From NCBI GenBank assembly GCA_015064425.1, contig SVSF01000087.1, positions 1 through 7,375 on the forward strand: DNA of 7,375 bases. Reading direction: 5' to 3'. Below, piece after piece: positions 1-7,375 of this stretch. The stretch is from Oscillospiraceae bacterium (GTDB taxonomy: Bacteria > Bacillota_A > Clostridia > Oscillospirales > CAG-272). The notes under the pieces are model-generated. The model was given only the letters and a program-made list of their open reading frames with translations, searched no databases and was not told the origin of the DNA. Numbering within the stretch: the first letter of the stretch is position 1; every line of letters begins with the position of its first letter. A program made the position numbers and the translations under genes.

Positions 1-97
1 TGGTAAAGCCTTTTTCAGCATAAAATTCCTGCTCACCGGCAGTAAAAGTGAATTCTTGTCCGCAATCCTTGCAGACCAGGGTCTTGTCTTCGTACAT
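1..97 (-). CDS. Small zinc-ribbon domain protein, 5' part only
   Basis: The first 32 residues are visible and the gene runs off the left edge. It begins MYEDKTLVCKDCG, giving a CxxC knuckle at Cys9 and Cys12, followed by an EF..TAGEQEFYAEKGF stretch. This resembles, from memory, the short 'probable zinc-ribbon' family (zf-trcl type) common in Clostridia. Those proteins usually carry a second CxxC about 30 residues later, which would lie outside this window. The family has no well-established biochemical function that I know of. The ATG at 97 is chosen because AAGAGG (109-104) sits 6 nt upstream. The gene has its own promoter (188-160) and is separated from the arginine operon by a terminator, so it is a separate transcription unit. 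The family call is moderately sure; the function is unknown. Confidence 0.75.
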   Translation of the reverse strand, partial: MYEDKTLVCKDCGQEFTFTAGEQEFYAEKGFT

Positions 98-103
98 GAG
101 ATA

Positions 104-109
104 CCTCTT
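104..109 (-). promoter_or_regulatory. Ribosome binding site of the zinc-ribbon gene
   Basis: On the minus strand AAGAGG lies 6 nt before the ATG at 97. It directly follows the U-rich tract of the upstream hairpin, so termination or folding in the leader would determine whether this site is transcribed. Confidence 0.7.
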
Positions 110-148
110 AAAAATAAAAAATCGTGCGATGACTTGCGTTCATCGCAC
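110..148 (-). terminator. 5' leader hairpin with U-tract (terminator-like, possible attenuator)
   Basis: On the minus strand GTGCGATGA (148-140) pairs perfectly with TCATCGCAC (132-124) around a 7-nt loop, ACGCAAG. It is followed by GA, six T, A, five T (123-110), the form of a Rho-independent terminator. It lies downstream of the promoter at 188-160 and before the ribosome binding site at 109-104, so it sits in the 5' leader of the zinc-ribbon gene. The predicted transcript start near 153 puts the stem about 5 nt from the RNA 5' end. It could terminate early transcripts, protect the mRNA 5' end, or act as a backup terminator for read-through from the arginine operon. The structure is directly seen; its role is inferred. 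Confidence 0.65.
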
Positions 149-159
149 ATCTTGAGTTT

Positions 160-188
160 ATCATACTACCTATTTTGTAAAAAGTCAA
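160..188 (-). promoter_or_regulatory. Sigma-A type promoter for the zinc-ribbon gene
   Basis: On the minus strand the -35 box is TTGACT (188-183), the spacer is exactly 17 nt (182-166) and the -10 box is TATGAT (165-160). Each box differs from consensus at one base. The predicted start is an A near 153-152, giving a leader of about 55 nt. The DNA just upstream of the -35 is A/T-tract rich and could act as an UP element. Confidence 0.75.
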
Positions 189-201
189 TGAAAATTTTTC
201 A
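189..201. repeat. 13-bp AT-rich palindrome abutting the -35 box
   Basis: TGAAAA-T-TTTTCA is a perfect inverted repeat immediately upstream of the -35 hexamer. It could be an operator half-site pair or simply UP-element-like A/T tracts. In DNA this AT-rich, such a palindrome may be coincidental. Confidence 0.3.
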
Positions 202-261
202 AAAAAAGGCGAAAATATAGCAGAAATAATAAAAACATTTTTTCGCAATGTATTTTTTTAG

Positions 262-306
262 AATAAAAAGCATAAAAATGCCGACGTCTGTCGACGCCGG
301 CATTTT
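262..306 (-). terminator. Intrinsic terminator of the arg-car operon
   Basis: Minus-strand arms at 306-293 and 288-275 form a 14-bp stem with one G-U wobble (297 with 284), closed by the tetraloop GACA (292-289). The stem is followed by a T-rich tail, TATGCTTTTTATT. The same mismatch is A-C on the plus strand, and no T-tract follows on that side, so it works for leftward transcription. It starts one base after the TAG of the carB-dapF gene. Confidence 0.9.
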
Positions 307-307
307 C

Positions 308-3300
308 CTAAAATTCCGTTTCGCCCTCAAATACGAGCACGGTGTCTCCCATAAGGACTATTCCGTCATCGCTGTAATTGACGGTAAGATCTCCGCCTTT
401 AAGCTTTACGGTTATATCCTCGTCTTTGTTACAGTATCCGTTCAGCACGGCAGCAACAGCTGCTGCACAGGCACCCGTTCCGCAAGCAATGGTTTCTCCG
501 TTGCCCCTTTCATAAACACGCATTTTGAGAGTATTTTTATTTACCACACGGACAAATTCCGTGTTTACCCTTTCAGGGAATATATCGGCATTTTCAAAGC
601 AGGGACCGATACGCTCCATATCGATAGAATCTATCCTGTCCATGAATACCACGCAATGGGGATTTCCCACCGAAAGACAGTTTATGAAATAGCTTTCTCC
701 GCCTATTTCCACCTCTTTATTTATAACTCTTTCTCCTTCAAAAGAGACGGGAATAAGTTTGGGATCAAACACAGGGCATCCCATTTTAACGCTTACGTAA
801 TTTACCTTAGAATTTCCGGTATAGAGTTTAAGCTCCTTTATACCTCCTGCAGTCTCTATGCTTATCTCATCCTTTTTAACGATACCTTTATCGTAAAGAT
901 ATTTTCCAAGGGATCTTATGCAGTTGCCCGCCATAAAGCCCTCGCTTCCGTCGCGGTTGAATATTCGCATTTTTGCGTCTGCAACGTCAGAGGATTCCAT
1001 AAGAACTATTCCGTTTCCTCCAACTCCTCTGCTTCTGTCACAAAGGCTGATACATAAGGACTCAGGGCAAACTATGCTTCCATCGAAATTCTCAATAAAG
1101 ATATAGTCGTCTCCCGTAGCATGCATCTTGGCAAACCTGAGTTTTCTGCGTTCCGTTCTAAGATCCGTTATATCAACAAGCTCAGTGTTCTGTTCAGTAT
1201 AGCGGCTTGCTACTATATCAAGCAAAGCATTTGCCGTATCAAGTGTCGTAAGACAAGGGATAGAAAGTTGCAGCGCTCTTCTGTGAAGGGCTATGTAATC
1301 GTCGACGGTATCGTCCAAAAGCGCTCCCGTATAAACAATATAGCTTATCTTTCCGCTTTCAAGAAGTTCAAAAGCCTTGTCGCTTTCTTTTATGCCCCTT
1401 ACGGATTCAACGTCTATCCCGAGGCTTGATACAGTCTCTGCCGTTTCCTCTGTTGCGTATATTTTAAAATTAAGATCGGAAAGCTTCTTTGCGATTCCTA
1501 CTATCTCATGCTGGTCATGGGTATCTACGCTGAGAAGGAATCCAACATCCTTATTATGGATAGATGATTTGAGCATCATTCCCGCAGACGTTAGTCCTTT
1601 AAAGAGTGCCTCTCTGAGAGTCTTTCCTATGCCCAGTACCTCACCCGTGGATTTCATCTCGGGACCGAGATAGGAGTTTACGTCGGAAAGCTTTTCAAAC
1701 GAGAACACGGGAACCTTTACGGTATAATACGGGGGTATCTTTGCAAGACCCGTTCCGCATCCTATATCCGCAAGCTTTTCACCCGTCATAACGCGAGACG
1801 CGATATCAACCATAGGAACTCCCGTTACCTTGCTGATATAAGGTACGGTACGGGATGCTCTCGGGTTTACCTCTATAACGTAAAGCTCGTTATTATATAT
1901 CAGATACTGTATATTGACAAGGCCCTTCGTTCCCAAAGAGAGAGCAAGTTTCTTTGAAGAATCCACAAGGGTATCTATCATCTTATCGTTAAGATTATAG
2001 GGGGGATACACGGCTATGGAGTCACCGCTGTGTACTCCCGCTCTTTCAATATGTTCCATTATACCCGGTATCAGAACGTCGGTACCGTCGGATATAACGT
2101 CTACCTCAAGTTCCGTACCCGCCATATACTTATCCACAAGGACCGGATTTTCAATTCCTCCCTCAAGTATACGGGCCATATAAGCTCTTACCTCATGTTC
2201 ATCGTGAACGATACGCATATTCTGTCCGCCGATAACGTAAGAGGGTCGAAGCAAAACGGGATATCCCAAAGCCTCGGCAGCCTTCACCGCTTCTTCCTCG
2301 GTCTTGACTCCCATTCCTTTCGGTCTCTTGATAGAGAATCTTTCCAAAACTCCGTCAAAGCGTTCTCTGTCTTCTGCGATATCTATTCCCTCGGCTGAGG
2401 TACCGAGTATCGTCATTCCCGCCTCATCCAAGAATTTAGTTAGTCTTATTGCAGTCTGTCCGCCGAAAGCGACAACTACGCCCACGGGGTCCTCGGCACG
2501 GATAACGTTCATAACGTCCTCCGGTGAAAGAGGCTCAAAATACAGTCTGTCCGCCGTATCGTAGTCCGTAGAGACCGTTTCGGGATTGTTGTTTATAATA
2601 ACAACGTCATACCCGAGTTTTTTTAGTGTCCATACGCAGTGCACCGAAGAATAGTCGAATTCTATTCCCTGACCTATTCTTATAGGTCCGGATCCCAAAA
2701 CAAGGACCGTAGGCTTACCGCTTTTCTTAAGCCTTCTCGAGTCACAGTGGCTATCGTACGAGGAATAGAAATATGGGGTATTCGCGGGATATTCCCCTGC
2801 GCAGGTATCTACCATTTTATAGACACAGTCCTTATGGAAAATATCGGCATTACCGTTTGAAAGTCTGCTGAGAGCCTCATCGGTATATCCCAGGTCCTTT
2901 CCCCTCATATAGAGTTCTTCATCAAGGCCCTTTTCTATACTTTTTTCGTAATCTGCAATATTTTTCAGCTTATAGAGGAAGAACTCGTCTATTTTTGTTA
3001 TATTATGTATCTCTTCTATGGATATCCCCGTCTTTATTGCCTCAAATACGGTGAATATCCTTCTGTCGTCGGTTATCTTTAATCTTTCCTTGAGGGAAAT
3101 ATCGGAAATGGGACGCGCATTGAGAGTGTCTAGAGATATTTCGGCACCTCTTACCGCTTTCATAAGAGCAGCCTCAAAGCTATGCCCGATAGCCATGACC
3201 TCTCCCGTGGCCTTCATCTGTGTTCCAAGCACTCTGCTTGAGCCGTAGAACTTATCGAATGGCCATTTGGGGAATTTAACTACTGCGTAGTCCACGGAAG

Positions 3301-4342
3301 GTTCAAAGCAAAGGCAAGTTTCTCCCGTTACGTCATTCTTTATTTCATCAAGAGTATATCCCAAGGCTATCTTTGCAGTAACCTTTGCTATGGGATATCC
3401 GGTAGCTTTGGATGCCAGAGCAGACGATCTCGAAACTCTGGGGTTGACCTCTATTACCGCATATTCAAGGCTCTCGGGATCAAGAGCAAACTGACAGTTA
3501 CAGCCTCCGATTATATTTAGAGAGGATACTATCTTCAGAGCCGAATTGCGGAGCATAGAGTATTCAAGACTCGAAAGAGTAAGAGCAGGTGCAACGACGA
3601 TGCTGTCTCCCGTATGTACTCCGACGGGGTCGAAGTTCTCCATACTGCACACGGCAATAGCGTTTCCCGAGGAGTCACGCATAGTCTCGAACTCTATTTC
3701 TTTCCAGCCATATATATACTTTTCAACCAGCACCTGTGTTATGGGTGACATATCGAGACCGGTACGCGCAATTATACGAAGCTCCTCTTCATTATAAGCA
3801 ACTCCGCCTCCCGCCCCCCCAAGAGTGAATGCAGGTCTTATAATTACGGGATATCCTATTCTTTCCGCTATCTTCAGGGAAGTCTCCACGTCGTTGGCTA
3901 TTTCCGAAGGAATGGTAGGTTCTCCTATCGCCTCCATTGCATCTTTGAACAGCTTTCTATCCTCCGCCTTATCGATAGCCTCCGCATTTGTTCCGATAAG
4001 TCTTACACCGTTGGCGGAAAGAAATCCTTCCTTGTCAAGCTCCATAGCTATGGTAAGTCCCGTCTGTCCGCCCAGCCCCGCAAGGAGACTGTCAGGCTTT
4101 TCTTTTTTTATTATTCTTTTTACCGTCTCAGCGGTAAGGGGTTCAAGATATATCTCATCGGCGAGTGCCTTATCTGTCATTATTGTAGCGGGATTTGAAT
4201 TTACAAGAACTACGTTTATTCCTTCTGATTTAAGGACACGGCATGCCTGAGCACCCGCATAGTCAAATTCAGCAGCCTGACCGATAACTATAGGTCCCGA
4301 CCCTATTACGAGAACCTTTTTTATACTCTTATCGAGAGCCAT
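308..4342 (-). CDS. carB-dapF: Carbamoyl-phosphate synthetase large subunit fused to a diaminopimelate epimerase-like domain
   Basis: The 1344-residue product has a complete CarB part (about 1-1067; E. coli CarB is 1073) followed without a linker by a complete DapF-like domain (about 1068-1344; H. influenzae DapF is 274). The CarB part holds two ATP-grasp halves: the first begins near the GSGPIVIGQ motif, the second near GSGPIRIGQ at residue 550. Both keep the IRP/RPS, VHTGDS/VHSGDS and EVNPR motifs, so both phosphorylation steps look functional. An MGS-type allosteric domain covers about 930-1067. The product should make carbamoyl phosphate from bicarbonate, ammonia and two ATP. The ATG at 4342 overlaps the carA stop (TGATG) and has GGGAGGTGA ideally placed upstream, so it is preferred over an in-frame GTG at 4348 that touches that site. 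No internal ribosome binding site is evident for a separate DapF. The CarB identity is certain. The fusion is clear in this sequence, but the activity of the DapF part is doubtful. Confidence 0.95.
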   Translation of the reverse strand: MALDKSIKKVLVIGSGPIVIGQAAEFDYAGAQACRVLKSEGINVVLVNSNPATIMTDKALADEIYLEPLTAETVKRIIKKEKPDSLLAGLGGQTGLTIAMELDKEGFLSANGVRLIGTNAEAIDKAEDRKLFKDAMEAIGEPTIPSEIANDVETSLKIAERIGYPVIIRPAFTLGGAGGGVAYNEEELRIIARTGLDMSPITQVLVEKYIYGWKEIEFETMRDSSGNAIAVCSMENFDPVGVHTGDSIVVAPALTLSSLEYSMLRNSALKIVSSLNIIGGCNCQFALDPESLEYAVIEVNPRVSRSSALASKATGYPIAKVTAKIALGYTLDEIKNDVTGETCLCFEPSVDYAVVKFPKWPFDKFYGSSRVLGTQMKATGEVMAIGHSFEAALMKAVRGAEISLDTLNARPISDISLKERLKITDDRRIFTVFEAIKTGISIEEIHNITKIDEFFLYKLKNIADYEKSIEKGLDEELYMRGKDLGYTDEALSRLSNGNADIFHKDCVYKMVDTCAGEYPANTPYFYSSYDSHCDSRRLKKSGKPTVLVLGSGPIRIGQGIEFDYSSVHCVWTLKKLGYDVVIINNNPETVSTDYDTADRLYFEPLSPEDVMNVIRAEDPVGVVVAFGGQTAIRLTKFLDEAGMTILGTSAEGIDIAEDRERFDGVLERFSIKRPKGMGVKTEEEAVKAAEALGYPVLLRPSYVIGGQNMRIVHDEHEVRAYMARILEGGIENPVLVDKYMAGTELEVDVISDGTDVLIPGIMEHIERAGVHSGDSIAVYPPYNLNDKMIDTLVDSSKKLALSLGTKGLVNIQYLIYNNELYVIEVNPRASRTVPYISKVTGVPMVDIASRVMTGEKLADIGCGTGLAKIPPYYTVKVPVFSFEKLSDVNSYLGPEMKSTGEVLGIGKTLREALFKGLTSAGMMLKSSIHNKDVGFLLSVDTHDQHEIVGIAKKLSDLNFKIYATEETAETVSSLGIDVESVRGIKESDKAFELLESGKISYIVYTGALLDDTVDDYIALHRRALQLSIPCLTTLDTANALLDIVASRYTEQNTELVDITDLRTERRKLRFAKMHATGDDYIFIENFDGSIVCPESLCISLCDRSRGVGGNGIVLMESSDVADAKMRIFNRDGSEGFMAGNCIRSLGKYLYDKGIVKKDEISIETAGGIKELKLYTGNSKVNYVSVKMGCPVFDPKLIPVSFEGERVINKEVEIGGESYFINCLSVGNPHCVVFMDRIDSIDMERIGPCFENADIFPERVNTEFVRVVNKNTLKMRVYERGNGETIACGTGACAAAVAAVLNGYCNKDEDITVKLKGGDLTVNYSDDGIVLMGDTVLVFEGETEF
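311..1141 (-). other. DapF-like domain at the C-terminus of the CarB fusion
   Basis: This marks residues 1068-1344 of the fusion. DapF interconverts LL- and meso-diaminopimelate with a two-cysteine, cofactor-free mechanism. Using H. influenzae numbering, the second cysteine (Cys217) is kept as Cys1287 in ACGTGAC, and substrate residues Asn64, Asn157, Asn190, Glu208 and Arg209 are kept as Asn1129, Asn1227, Asn1260, Glu1278 and Arg1279. The first cysteine (Cys73, in CGNGARC) is Ala1138 in AGNCIRS, Asn11 is Asp1078, Asp43 is Asn1110 and Cys79 is Ser1144. A new Cys1141 lies three residues after the missing one. The domain is therefore full length but lacks the standard acid/base pair. It may be an atypical epimerase, a different racemase, or a ligand-binding pseudoenzyme. 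Confidence 0.85.
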
Positions 4343-5370
4343 CAGCACTCACCTCCCAACATAGAGACGAATCTGTCATAAAGAAATGCAAGTTCTTCTC
4401 CTTCGGGGTAAAACTGTATTCCAAAAGCCTTTTTATTGGGGTAATCGATTCCCTCAACGCTTCCGTCGTTTGTATTAACGTATCTCGTAATACCGCAGTA
4501 TCCGGAATCCTTTTCCACCGCATAACCGTGATTTTGGTTGACTATGTAGCTGCGCGTGCCGAGAAGATCTCTAACTCCGTGATTCGAGCCGCGGTGACCA
4601 ACCTTCATCTTGTTGATCTTTCCTCCCGCCGCCTCGGCAAGTATCTGATGTCCTCTGCCTATGGCAAATACGGGGATCTTCGATAAGAGTCCTGTAAGAG
4701 TCTTAAGAGGAATATCTCCGTCCTCAACAGCCTCAGGTCCGCCCGACACAACCAGTCCGTCGTATTTTATTATTTCCTCGGCATCAGTGTCAAATGGCAA
4801 TACCGTAACCTTACAGTTTCTTTTTATAAGCTCCTCGGAAACACTTTTTTTCATGCCGAGATCGAGAAGAGCAACGGAATATTTCCCATTTTCAGACAAC
4901 TCTTTTTTTACTTTAAAGGAGACTGCAGCGTGAGAAGGAGTTATCGCTCTAAGCTCTTCGGGAATAGAGGGCTCGTTTGAAATATATGCCTTCACACTTC
5001 CCTTTTCGCGGATTATTTTCACTACTTCTCTTGTATCTATTCCGTATATTCCGGGAATTCCCCTTGCTTTAAGGAAACTGTCAACATCAGTATCACATCT
5101 AAAGTTTGAAGGTTCTCTGCAATATTCTCTTACCACATATGCTAATGGACCGTATCCGCTCTCGCAATCGGAGATATTTACTCCGTAATTTCCAAAAAGA
5201 GGAAAGGTGCCCAAAAGTATCTGTCCGGTGTAAGCGGGATCTGTAAGAGATCCAACGTATCCGCAAACGTCCGTACTGAAGACGAGTTCTCCCGTCGTCT
5301 GCTTATCAGCCCCGAAGGAATATCCGCAAAAGACGTTTCCGTCTTCCAATATCAAATATCTTTTTTTCAT
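4342..5370 (-). CDS. carA: Carbamoyl-phosphate synthetase small subunit with a lost glutaminase active site
   Basis: The 342-residue protein, somewhat shorter than the 382 of E. coli, has the CarA N-terminal domain (about 1-140; LILEDG start, TDPAYTGQ, GIYGIDTRE) and a class I glutamine amidotransferase domain (about 165-342). CarA normally hydrolyses glutamine and feeds ammonia into CarB through a tunnel. The domain is recognisable from GHQ at 240-242, the GHRGSNHG stretch and QNHGYAV. In E. coli numbering, however, nucleophile Cys269 is Gly238 (AIGRGHQ instead of GICLGHQ), His353 is Tyr321 (FYPE instead of GHPE), Ser47 is Ala46 and Gly243 is Glu213. It should not hydrolyse glutamine and probably serves as a structural partner of CarB. 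The start at 5370 has AAGGATGG upstream. The stop overlaps the carB start by one base, suggesting translational coupling. Confidence 0.93.
   Translation of the reverse strand: MKKRYLILEDGNVFCGYSFGADKQTTGELVFSTDVCGYVGSLTDPAYTGQILLGTFPLFGNYGVNISDCESGYGPLAYVVREYCREPSNFRCDTDVDSFLKARGIPGIYGIDTREVVKIIREKGSVKAYISNEPSIPEELRAITPSHAAVSFKVKKELSENGKYSVALLDLGMKKSVSEELIKRNCKVTVLPFDTDAEEIIKYDGLVVSGGPEAVEDGDIPLKTLTGLLSKIPVFAIGRGHQILAEAAGGKINKMKVGHRGSNHGVRDLLGTRSYIVNQNHGYAVEKDSGYCGITRYVNTNDGSVEGIDYPNKKAFGIQFYPEGEELAFLYDRFVSMLGGEC
4349..4357 (-). promoter_or_regulatory. carB ribosome binding site inside the end of carA
   Basis: GGGAGGTGA is encoded within the last codons of carA (Leu-Gly-Gly-Glu-Cys-stop) and ends 6 nt before the carB ATG at 4342. 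It decides the carB start: the in-frame GTG at 4348 directly abuts it and could not use it. Confidence 0.8.
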
Positions 5371-5398
5371 AAGTTATCCATCCTTCCGCATAAGCGGA
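5371..5398 (-). promoter_or_regulatory. argF-carA spacer: small hairpin and carA ribosome binding site
   Basis: In the 41-nt gap, minus-strand TCCGC (5398-5394) and GCGGA (5389-5385) form a 5-bp stem with a TTAT loop. This runs directly into AAGGATGG, the likely carA ribosome binding site about 8-10 nt from the ATG. There is no U-tract, so it is not a terminator. The short stem could mildly modulate carA initiation or be incidental. Confidence 0.4.
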
Positions 5399-5411
5399 TC
5401 ACTTACACGAA

Positions 5412-6395
5412 TCAAAGAGTAGCTGCCATTACAGCCTTTATGGTATGCATTCTGTTTTCAGCTTCATCGAACACAAGAGAACGGTCACTTTCAAAAACTT
5501 CGTCCGTCACTTCCATTGCATCTCTTCCGAAGCGGTCGCACATCTGTGCTCCTATAGCGGTCTTTCTGTCATGGAAAGCAGGGAGGCAGTGCATAAACAC
5601 AGTTTTTTCTCCTGTAGCATCCATAAGCTTCTTGTTTACCTGATAAGCGGAAAGATCGTTTATTCTTTCCTCCCATACTTCAAAAGGTTCACCCATTGAT
5701 ACCCATACGTCCGTATAGATAACGTCAGCACCCTTTACGGCAGTTTCGGGATCATCATTAAGCTCAATACTTCCGCCTGTTTCTGCAGCGATCTTTCTGC
5801 ACTCTGCAACAAGAGCCTCATCCGGGAAATACTTTTTTGGAGCGCAGGCAACGAAATCAAGTCCCAGCTTTGCACAGCCTACCATAAGGGAATTGCCCAT
5901 ATTGAAACGGGCATCGCCCATATATACAAACTTTATACCTTTAAGCTTGCCGAAATGTTCTCTTATCGTAAGCATATCCGCAAGTATCTGTGTAGGATGA
6001 AATTCGTTTGTAAGTCCGTTCCATACGGGAACTCCGGCATACTTAGCAAGCTCCTCAACGATCTCCTGCCCAAAACCTCTGTACTCAATGCCGTCATAAA
6101 TACGGCCGAGAACACGTGCGGTATCAGCTATAGATTCTTTCTTGCCTATCTGGGATCCGGAAGGATCAAGGTAAGTGCAGTGCATTCCCAGATCATGTGC
6201 GGCAACTTCAAAGCTGCAGCGTGTTCGCGTGCTTGTCTTTTCAAATATCAGAGCAATATTTTTGCCCTTGTGTATCTCGTGTATCTCGCCGTTCTTTTTC
6301 TTTATCTTAAAATCAGCTGCCAAGTCTATAAGTCCGAGTATCTCCTCGGATGTAAAATCAAGAAGTTTTAAAAAGCTTTTACCTTTCAAATTCAT
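5412..6395 (-). CDS. argF: Ornithine carbamoyltransferase
   Basis: The 327-residue cytosolic enzyme transfers the carbamoyl group from carbamoyl phosphate to ornithine, giving citrulline. Family motifs are in order: STRTR at 55-59 (carbamoyl-phosphate binding), FHPTQ at 132-136, DARFNMGNS at 161-169 (ornithine side), DVWVSMGE at 229-236 and HCLP at 269-272 with the catalytic Cys270. The length and YRGFGQE...[11 protein letters not shown] style match the longer E. coli-type group. The biosynthetic direction is inferred from the neighbours argD and carAB; no arcA or arcC is visible. The frame opens earlier (6425), but the ATG at 6395 begins the usual MNLKGKSFL and has GAGAGGT (6407-6401) just upstream. 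It follows argD by 17 nt and supplies the sink for the carbamoyl phosphate made by the next two genes. Confidence 0.95.
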
Positions 6396-6400
6396 TTCAT

Positions 6401-6407
6401 ACCTCTC
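6401..6407 (-). promoter_or_regulatory. argF ribosome binding site
   Basis: GAGAGGT lies 5 nt before the ATG at 6395. The earlier in-frame ATG codons near 6413-6416 overlap the argD stop and have no comparable site, so this fixes the argF start. Confidence 0.7.
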
Positions 6408-6412
6408 ATTCA

Positions 6413-7375
6413 TCATTCTGCGCATACGGATATTATGATATCCACCGCTTTTTCCACAAGGTCAAAGGGAATGTTAAGGGGAGGAAGCAAACGCACCTTG
6501 GTCTTTGCTGTAAGTACGAGAAGTCCTTTTTCACGGCACACCGCAAGTATATCCGCAGCAGGCTTTTCAGTTTCTATACCAAGCATAAGTCCCATTCCGC
6601 TTACGCTCTTTATACCCTTTTTGCCCGTAAGGCTGTTTCTTATATATTCGGATCTCTTTTCTACACCTTCAAGAAGCTTTTCGTCTATTCTTCCGAGGAT
6701 GTTGACAGCTCCTGCACAGCATACGGGATTTCCCCCAAAGGTCGAGCCGTGGCTTCCGGGCCCATATACACCCTCTGTCTTCTCATTGAACATTGCCGCT
6801 CCCAAAGGGAGTCCTCCCGCAAGACCTTTTGCAGTAGTAACTATATCGGGAGATATTCCGTACTGCATAAATGCATAGAGCTTTCCGCTTCTTCCGTTGC
6901 CCGTCTGTACCTCATCAATTACAAGAAGCACATCATTTACCTTGCAGTAAGCCTCAACAGCTTTTACAAAATCTTTATCAAGGGCTCTTACTCCGCCCTC
7001 TCCCTGAATAAGCTCCATCATAATTGCCGCAGGCTTTACATCGTCCGCAAGCTTTATGAGTGCCTCGGTATCATCTGCATCGGCATAGACGAATCCTTCC
7101 GTAAGAGGCAAAAAATTTTTGTGGAACACATCTTGACCTGTTGCCGCAAGAGTCGTTACAGTTCTTCCGTGGAAACTGTTTTTAAGTGTTATTATCGTAC
7201 TTCTTCCGTCAGCCTTGTCCTCATGATACTTTCTTGCAGCCTTAATTGCGCACTCGTTTGCTTCAGCACCCGAATTTGCAAAAAACACCTTCTTCATTCC
7301 GGTCCTTTCGCAAAGCATCTCCGCAAGTCTTACACAAGGCTCTGTATAGAAAAGATTTGATGTATGCTGAAAGCT
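6413..7375 (-). CDS. argD: Acetylornithine aminotransferase, C-terminal part
   Basis: The open frame enters from the right edge, so the visible 320 residues lack roughly the first 70-80 of the usual length of about 390-400. This PLP enzyme of fold type I transfers an amino group from glutamate to N-acetylglutamate semialdehyde, giving N-acetylornithine. Visible marks are [33 protein letters not shown], the cofactor-binding [13 protein letters not shown], the PLP lysine in [13 protein letters not shown] (Lys183 of the visible part) and [14 protein letters not shown]. The internal Met at 7318 is not a start, because the family sequence continues upstream in frame. Some ArgD enzymes also act as succinyldiaminopimelate aminotransferase in lysine synthesis. 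Its position before argF and carAB supports an arginine role. Identification is firm, though closely related aminotransferases share these motifs. Confidence 0.92.

Follow-up and report, generated by a model that had tools for sequence, protein, structure and literature searches.

Introduction

In active diaminopimelate (DAP) epimerase, the product of dapF, two cysteines serve catalysis. Replacing either of them in the Corynebacterium glutamicum enzyme (C83A or C221A) leaves a nearly inactive protein, and the same is true of N15A, N74A, N85A, N159A, N194A, E212A, R213A and T223A (PMC5296763); in HisR, a histidine racemase related to DapF, Cys-to-Ser mutants are strongly reduced (PMC11602996). 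A catalytically dead DapF can still act on a partner: the E. coli C73A/C217A protein binds and stimulates RppH (PMC4227774). Among carbamoyl-phosphate synthases, human CPS1 responds to a ligand that acts as a switch at its own C-terminal domain, and, with Ser in place of the glutaminase Cys, takes ammonia (PMC4655335). The two kinds of protein are joined in the stretch of DNA analysed here (the "window": all 7,375 nucleotides of contig SVSF01000087.1, positions 1 to 7,375, from the Oscillospiraceae bacterium assembly GCA_015064425.1), where carB runs in frame into dapF. The fusion is real; its DapF half has lost the first catalytic Cys and has retained the binding pocket. The reading favoured here, with a probability of about 0.55, is that this half is a ligand-binding pseudoenzyme, derived from a once bifunctional CarB-DapF, that tunes or stabilises carbamoyl-phosphate synthase.

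No paper on a CarB-DapF fusion was found in the literature searched (titles and the starts of abstracts, with most subscription papers outside coverage), and the passages of PMC9026213 on dapF, fused, fusion and carB make no mention of one.

One reading frame, two enzyme families

The fusion gene is a single minus-strand frame, 308-4348, of 1346 codons counted from a GTG; its likely start is an ATG slightly further in, which overlaps the stop of carA. (The plus-strand translation of 308-4342 has many stops.) Its parts are as follows.

308..4342, minus strand: carB::dapF fusion gene, 1344 amino acids from the ATG at 4342, with an in-frame GTG at 4348
1217..4333, minus strand: CarB part (TIGR01369, residues 6-1044 in the 1346 numbering)
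1247..1507, minus strand: MGS-like allosteric domain of CarB (Pfam, residues 948-1034), with the loop YTGALLDD
1124..1189, minus strand: conserved junction NTELVDI...FAKM, 22 residues, of low predicted confidence
317..1138, minus strand: DapF-like domain (TIGR00652, residues 1071-1344), with a predicted DapF fold
1109..1111, minus strand: codon of Asp1080, at the site of Asn15 in active DapF (C. glutamicum numbering)
929..931, minus strand: codon of the lost first catalytic Cys, Ala1140 in the 1346 numbering, equivalent to Cys83 in C. glutamicum DapF and to Cys73 in that of H. influenzae
482..484, minus strand: codon of the kept second catalytic Cys, Cys1289 (Cys221 of C. glutamicum DapF)

A preliminary description of the window, made from its letters alone, had proposed an uninterrupted frame from CarB into a DapF domain without naming a strand. 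That frame stands, at 1344 codons on the minus strand, with both family models over their NCBIfam cut-offs: TIGR01369 scores 1404 bits (cut-off 1027) over the whole model, and TIGR00652 scores 261 bits (cut-off 114.65), which places the tail in the DapF family by descent. The Pfam domain calls agree, and the partner gene expected of a carB is in place, carA lying directly upstream with its stop overlapping the carB start.

The same description knew the architecture as no standard one; in some Clostridia it is common. Searched against a protein database, the tail has 6175 matches at E 1e-3 among 7989 scored, and the best 120 of the 6175, one of them the window's own protein, all carry annotated CPSase and DAP_epimerase domains. 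A scan of GTDB species genomes gave at least 581 relatives; in all of the best 80, which were kept (loci L001-L080), the DapF match is preceded by at least 107 residues of open frame and is in frame with them, several loci being cut by contig ends. In an even sample of one class the fusion was present in at least 52 of 391 genomes; family- and order-wide searches around G109 and G252 yielded 1 and 16 genomes. Among the matches listed and the loci kept, the carriers belong to Oscillospiraceae, Christensenellaceae, Borkfalkia and other Clostridia, with records titled Oscillibacter valericigenes, Oscillibacter ruminantium, Evtepia gabavorous and Gemmiger sp. An120, and metagenome-assembled genome (MAG) records titled Borkfalkia, Pullichristensenella and Christensenella. 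This is a widespread joining of two enzymes from unrelated pathways.

Two genomes hold more than one long frame with a DapF match, plus a short one: G053 (locus L048; 1097 and 1427 amino acids) and G074 (L079; 1381 and 1353 amino acids). Apparently these have two fusion genes each, or are mixed MAGs.

The two halves meet at a conserved junction, where the preliminary description had seen no linker. NTEL is invariant in 117 full-length tail matches (including the window's own protein), and the spacing from NTE to FxK is 22 residues in every one of the 120 proteins P0001-P0120; among P0121-P0240 the junction-length pattern matched 20 of 120, and ten sequences that were inspected, seven of them from P0121-P0240, are similar. 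In an AlphaFold2 model made from an alignment of 66 (mean predicted local distance difference test score, pLDDT, 89.5; predicted template modelling score 0.74) two confident domains flank the junction, a weak stretch of pLDDT 57-58. Foldseek with the predicted tail returns DapFs as best matches, at their head 9mro, which is bound to a DAP analogue (template modelling score 0.92 by target length, root-mean-square deviation 1.6), together with relatives of other chemistry, PhzF and trans-3-hydroxyproline dehydratase.

An incomplete active site

The tail had also been described as a complete DapF-like domain. In length and fold it is one; in its active site it is not. The CGN of the first catalytic Cys reads AGN in the window, alignments with Protein Data Bank structures placing Ala1140 at that site, and this is the rule among its relatives: the site is Ala in 105, Gly in 9 and Ser in 3 of the 117 full-length tail matches, and over the window and the 80 kept loci it is never Cys, the second Cys being present in 80 of these 81. 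Standalone DapFs read CGN in 55 of 55 (rows that come from part of the genomes only, two of them relabelled from fused).

An alignment of 220 rows of Cys-lost fusions (120 listed proteins, with the window's own as P0001; 99 genome loci; and the window itself; proteins and loci may overlap) gives Ala 187, Gly 26 and Ser 7 at the first site; it is Cys in all 148 aligned rows of the Cys-intact fusions taken up below. The second Cys (ACGTGA) is kept in 218 of the 220 Cys-lost rows, with the CGTG loop around it. The DAP recognition residues (C. glutamicum numbering) are all present in the window and nearly universal in the 220 rows: N74 in 220, N159 in 218, N194 in 218, E212 in 219 and R213 in 217. 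T223 is Thr in 209 and Ser in 11, and N85 is found in 201. The site of Asn15, Asp in the window, is Asp in 129 of the 220 and Asn in 87. More broadly, 46 columns are invariant in Cys-intact fusions and standalone DapFs taken together; 37 of these are conserved at 95% or more in the Cys-lost rows and five at 80-95%, and the four below 80% are those of the first Cys, of Asn15, of an Asp at domain position 46 and of a Val. The domain as a whole is still full length, with a mean pairwise identity of 62% (400 random pairs).

Of the residues that mark an active DAP epimerase, then, the window has the second Cys and the recognition residues and lacks the first Cys and Asn15. A catalytic residue gone and a binding site retained are what one would look for in a regulatory pseudoenzyme domain, and the window's DapF half is unlikely to be a working DAP epimerase because the residue replaced is one whose Ala mutant is nearly dead in C. 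glutamicum.

The neighbourhood of the lost Cys was examined for a substitute. In the 220 rows the residue at +3 is Cys in 88, Ala in 54, Ser in 49 and Asn in 14, and that at +6 is Cys in 178 and Ser in 35. The Cys at +3 (AGNC) is ruled out as a substitute base by its variability.

Other DAP enzymes in the genomes that carry the fusion

Sampling of the class revealed fusions in which the first Cys is intact (CGN). A search from one of these, L148, gave 120 proteins among the matches listed, of which 119 read as CGN by pattern and the remaining one, P0162, has Cys in the alignment. That all carB::dapF fusions are dead is thereby rejected.

The two states were compared over 127 genomes with the fusion, 28 Cys-intact and 99 Cys-lost. 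Seventy-five, every one of them Cys-lost, are the genomes behind L001-L080 (L050, L054, L065, L076 and L078 are left out of the genome table), a set chosen for its likeness to the window; the other 52, on which the figure of at least 52 in 391 is based, come from the class samples. The second dapF gene that the preliminary description had thought worth looking for was sought in these relatives rather than in the window's own genome, with dapF fragments in G026, G049 and G052 (the last below the family cut-off) counted as standalone and a 19.6-bit match in G404 not counted.

The outcome differs with the state of the Cys. Another dapF match is found in 3 of 28 Cys-intact genomes as against 73 of 99 Cys-lost ones (Fisher test 1.7e-9, with genomes treated as independent), the fusion being the only dapF match in 25 of the 28. 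Ddh is over its cut-off in 23 of the 28 and in 49 of the 99. Combining the two, 95 of the 99 Cys-lost genomes have a separate dapF match or Ddh (73 with dapF, 22 more with Ddh), and neither is found in 5 of 28 Cys-intact and 4 of 99 Cys-lost genomes. Where Ddh is absent the division is sharpest: a separate dapF occurs in none of 5 Cys-intact and 46 of 50 Cys-lost genomes (p 3.6e-5). The five Cys-intact genomes with neither standalone dapF nor Ddh rule out the proposition that the fused DapF is never needed; as Ddh is present and a further dapF absent in 20 of the 28, many of the Cys-intact genomes may also be able to do without the fused epimerase.

The gene for the enzyme that acts one step before DapF is dapL, whose product makes LL-DAP. 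Of 16 contexts of the Cys-intact fusion, viewed over five genes up and three down, eight have it at most two genes downstream: L281, L282, L283, L284, L286, L290, L291 and L294. Four of these dapL genes are named by NCBIfam and four are at 63-67% identity to one of those. None of the four Cys-lost (GGN) contexts fetched alongside has dapL, and BLAST finds none at the 80 Cys-lost loci, a set in which contig ends cut many short. Elsewhere in Cys-lost genomes, dapL (TIGR03542) is over its cut-off in 8 of 25, and in five of the eight (G001, G007, G008, G021 and G023) it adjoins the standalone dapF.

Origin and history

When 133 DapF domains are placed in a tree, the fused ones fall within the standalone DapFs of Clostridia, and the three changes between fused and alone make one origin of the fusion, with some splits, possible. 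The state of the Cys changes at least four times on this tree and seven times on a tree of the CarB part, five of those changes being forced by well-supported branches. From these trees and from the standalone DapFs we infer that the Cys-intact state is ancestral. Repeated loss of the Cys with the domain retained points to a need that has been relaxed for catalysis and not for the domain.

In one genome, G086, a Cys-intact fusion occurs together with a standalone DapF whose place in the tree is among fused ones (L203, L227); this standalone DapF is possibly a split-off of a fusion.

The effector loop and CarA

Two other parts of the synthase have changed. The TSxKGR loop of the MGS domain, which from E. 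coli CarB we take to be nucleotide-binding, is kept in 28 of 28 Cys-intact fusions as against 10 of 100 Cys-lost ones; it is degenerate in the other 90, among them the window. The old effector loop has thus decayed in the same large lineage as the Cys; the rows are related and may record a single event.

The second change is in CarA. The minus-strand gene order of the window is argD (partial), argF, carA, carB::dapF and then a terminator-like hairpin:

6413..7375, minus strand: argD, acetylornithine aminotransferase, cut by the window edge (open reading frame, Pfam and NCBIfam)
5412..6425, minus strand: argF, ornithine carbamoyltransferase (open reading frame, Pfam and NCBIfam)
4342..5370, minus strand: carA, the partner small subunit, its stop overlapping the carB start and its glutaminase Cys and His replaced
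4657..4659, minus strand: codon of CarA Gly238, at the site of the glutaminase nucleophile Cys (FAIGRGHQ)
274..307, minus strand: terminator-like hairpin directly 3' of carB::dapF, 15 pairs with a T tail, a pattern match only

The window's CarA scores 327 bits on PRK12838 (cut-off 221) and 305.7 on TIGR01368, slightly below the cut-off of 307.35. At the site of the glutaminase Cys it reads Gly (FAIGRGHQ), and Tyr stands in for the catalytic His (QFYPEGE). Since both are lost, the window's carbamoyl-phosphate synthase is probably ammonia-dependent, using free ammonia. Among 58 CarA frames (the window and 57 loci), 14 (the window and 13 others) have Gly for the nucleophile Cys together with another residue for the His, L012 has lost the His only, and 42 keep both residues. 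Of the 13 other genomes with a dead CarA, 11 have no other CarA over cut-off and two, G001 and G011, have a second one. Elsewhere carA is reduced or absent: at L004:6362-10897 a single frame of 1512 codons joins a CarA N-domain that lacks the glutaminase domain to CarB-DapF, and at L051, L057, L061, L063, L067 and L073 argF directly precedes carB::dapF with no carA between; of four such genomes searched, G058, G060 and G065 have no CarA match and G021 has an intact CarA elsewhere. Ruminant gut appears in the record title of 17 of 20 loci with CarA altered or missing as against 4 of 42 with it intact (RUG-coded records and O. ruminantium left out, and loci counted regardless of kinship).

What is the DapF half for?

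If the window's DapF half has given up a residue that catalysis needs, why is it still there? A binding domain is the favoured answer because the pocket has been kept while the chemistry has been dropped. Support of an indirect sort comes from the Cys-less E. coli DapF that still acts on RppH (PMC4227774) and from the decay of the TSxKGR loop. The course of events would be this: 1) In Clostridia, carB would have gained dapF at its 3' end, in the same reading frame. 2) The first product would have been a working bifunctional protein for carbamoyl-phosphate synthesis and DAP epimerisation, with dapL nearby in some lines. 3) Several later lineages, the window's included, would have lost the first catalytic Cys of the DapF half, DAP epimerisation then being taken over by a separate dapF or bypassed via Ddh. 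4) The domain, retained with its amino-acid-binding pocket, would now most likely be a ligand-binding pseudoenzyme attached to CarB at its allosteric C-terminus, which may bind DAP or another basic amino acid and may tune or stabilise the synthase of the arginine operon. The preliminary description's preference for regulation or tethering at that end over channelling is compatible with this course, in which regulation is the suggested role. More tentatively, and with less confidence than we place in the pseudoenzyme itself, one can think of a broad group of gut Clostridia as having turned a bifunctional CarB-DapF into a synthase that answers to an amino-acid sensor of its own, the former epimerase with its catalysis disarmed. 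Arginine synthesis would then be linked to the level of a cell-wall or lysine precursor (or of a basic amino acid), and the MGS effector loop, with the glutaminase in some lines, would have decayed meanwhile.

Several observations weigh against the pseudoenzyme reading. Because Ddh is present in 23 of the 28 Cys-intact genomes, DapF is often not strictly needed even there. The near-invariance of the second Cys could be leftover chemistry instead of sensing. In four Cys-lost genomes (G016, G030, G174 and G206) a standalone dapF and Ddh are both without a match; a gene may have been missed in these, G016 (L027) and G030 (L013) being MAGs by title and the fusions of G174 and G206 lying on 3.2- and 5.3-kb contigs. 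Finally, when kinship is taken into account the link between Cys loss and a standalone dapF comes down to five independent pairs (2.9 the same way, 0.2 opposite, median p 0.25), and that with "standalone or Ddh" to 0.8 the same way and 0.1 opposite (median p 1): the trend still runs the same way but, underpowered at five pairs, is not significant.

Might the tail be structural instead, a domain that CarB needs for folding, stability or oligomer contacts, with no ligand sensed? The fixed length of the junction throughout P0001-P0120 and the full-length Cys-lost domain with its mean pairwise identity of 62% would suit such a role, and the tail could bring about contacts if it pairs as the dimeric C. 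glutamicum DapF does (PMC5296763). What this leaves unexplained is why the recognition residues stand at 98.6-100% while the catalytic Cys and Asn15 erode, and we hold it fairly unlikely. Changed catalysis, in which a domain with the single thiol of Cys1289 would carry out another amino-acid reaction (one-sided proton exchange, elimination or isomerisation), seems to us unlikely. The conserved Cys221 equivalent in its CGTG loop, together with the appearance of PhzF and trans-3-hydroxyproline dehydratase in the fold search, speaks for it; against it, the variable +3 and +6 sites offer no conserved second base near the lost one, and argD, argF and carA in the window's operon call for no such step. 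That the window's protein is still a working bifunctional CarB and DAP epimerase is very improbable: the TIGR00652 score far over cut-off, the Cys-intact sister fusions that are their genomes' only dapF match, and the four Cys-lost genomes just named could be cited in its favour, but it has to contend with the near-death of C. glutamicum DapF on losing either Cys (PMC5296763) and with an Asp in place of Asn15, which that enzyme also needs. A chimera, frameshift or assembly error, for which the preliminary description had proposed looking at the junction, has nothing found in its favour and is refuted by the identical in-frame junction in 119 other proteins and 80 loci (among the best 120 of 6175 matches and the best 80 of at least 581 relatives).

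On the pseudoenzyme reading, relatives would offer both states, apparently working bifunctional and disarmed, so that the step from enzyme to sensor becomes testable with natural pairs. For annotators, a TIGR00652 or PF01678 match inside carB is in many such genomes no sign of an active DAP epimerase, which bears on pathway calls in gut metagenomes.

Comparison with known systems

With CarB (TIGR01369; E. coli 1bxr) the fusion shares both ATP-grasp halves, the oligomerisation domain and the MGS domain; it differs in the DapF-like domain that follows the MGS domain and, in the window's lineage, in a degenerate TSxKGR. With DapF (TIGR00652; 2otn, 9mro) the tail shares the fold, the recognition residues and the second catalytic Cys; unlike DapF, it is fused to CarB and has Ala for the first Cys and Asp for the equivalent of Asn15. 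As regards function, two likenesses are proposed. In human CPS1, as in the window's synthase, the glutaminase Cys is lost (to Ser in CPS1, to Gly in the window's CarA), and the C-terminal ligand switch of CPS1 may have its counterpart in the fused tail, although CPS1 has no DapF (PMC4655335). E. coli DapF with RppH is a DapF body acting on another enzyme without epimerase activity, and the fused domain may do likewise; the E. coli DapF does so as a separate subunit (PMC4227774), whereas the DapF of the fusion, known here from sequence, would do so as a covalent domain of the enzyme that it acts on.

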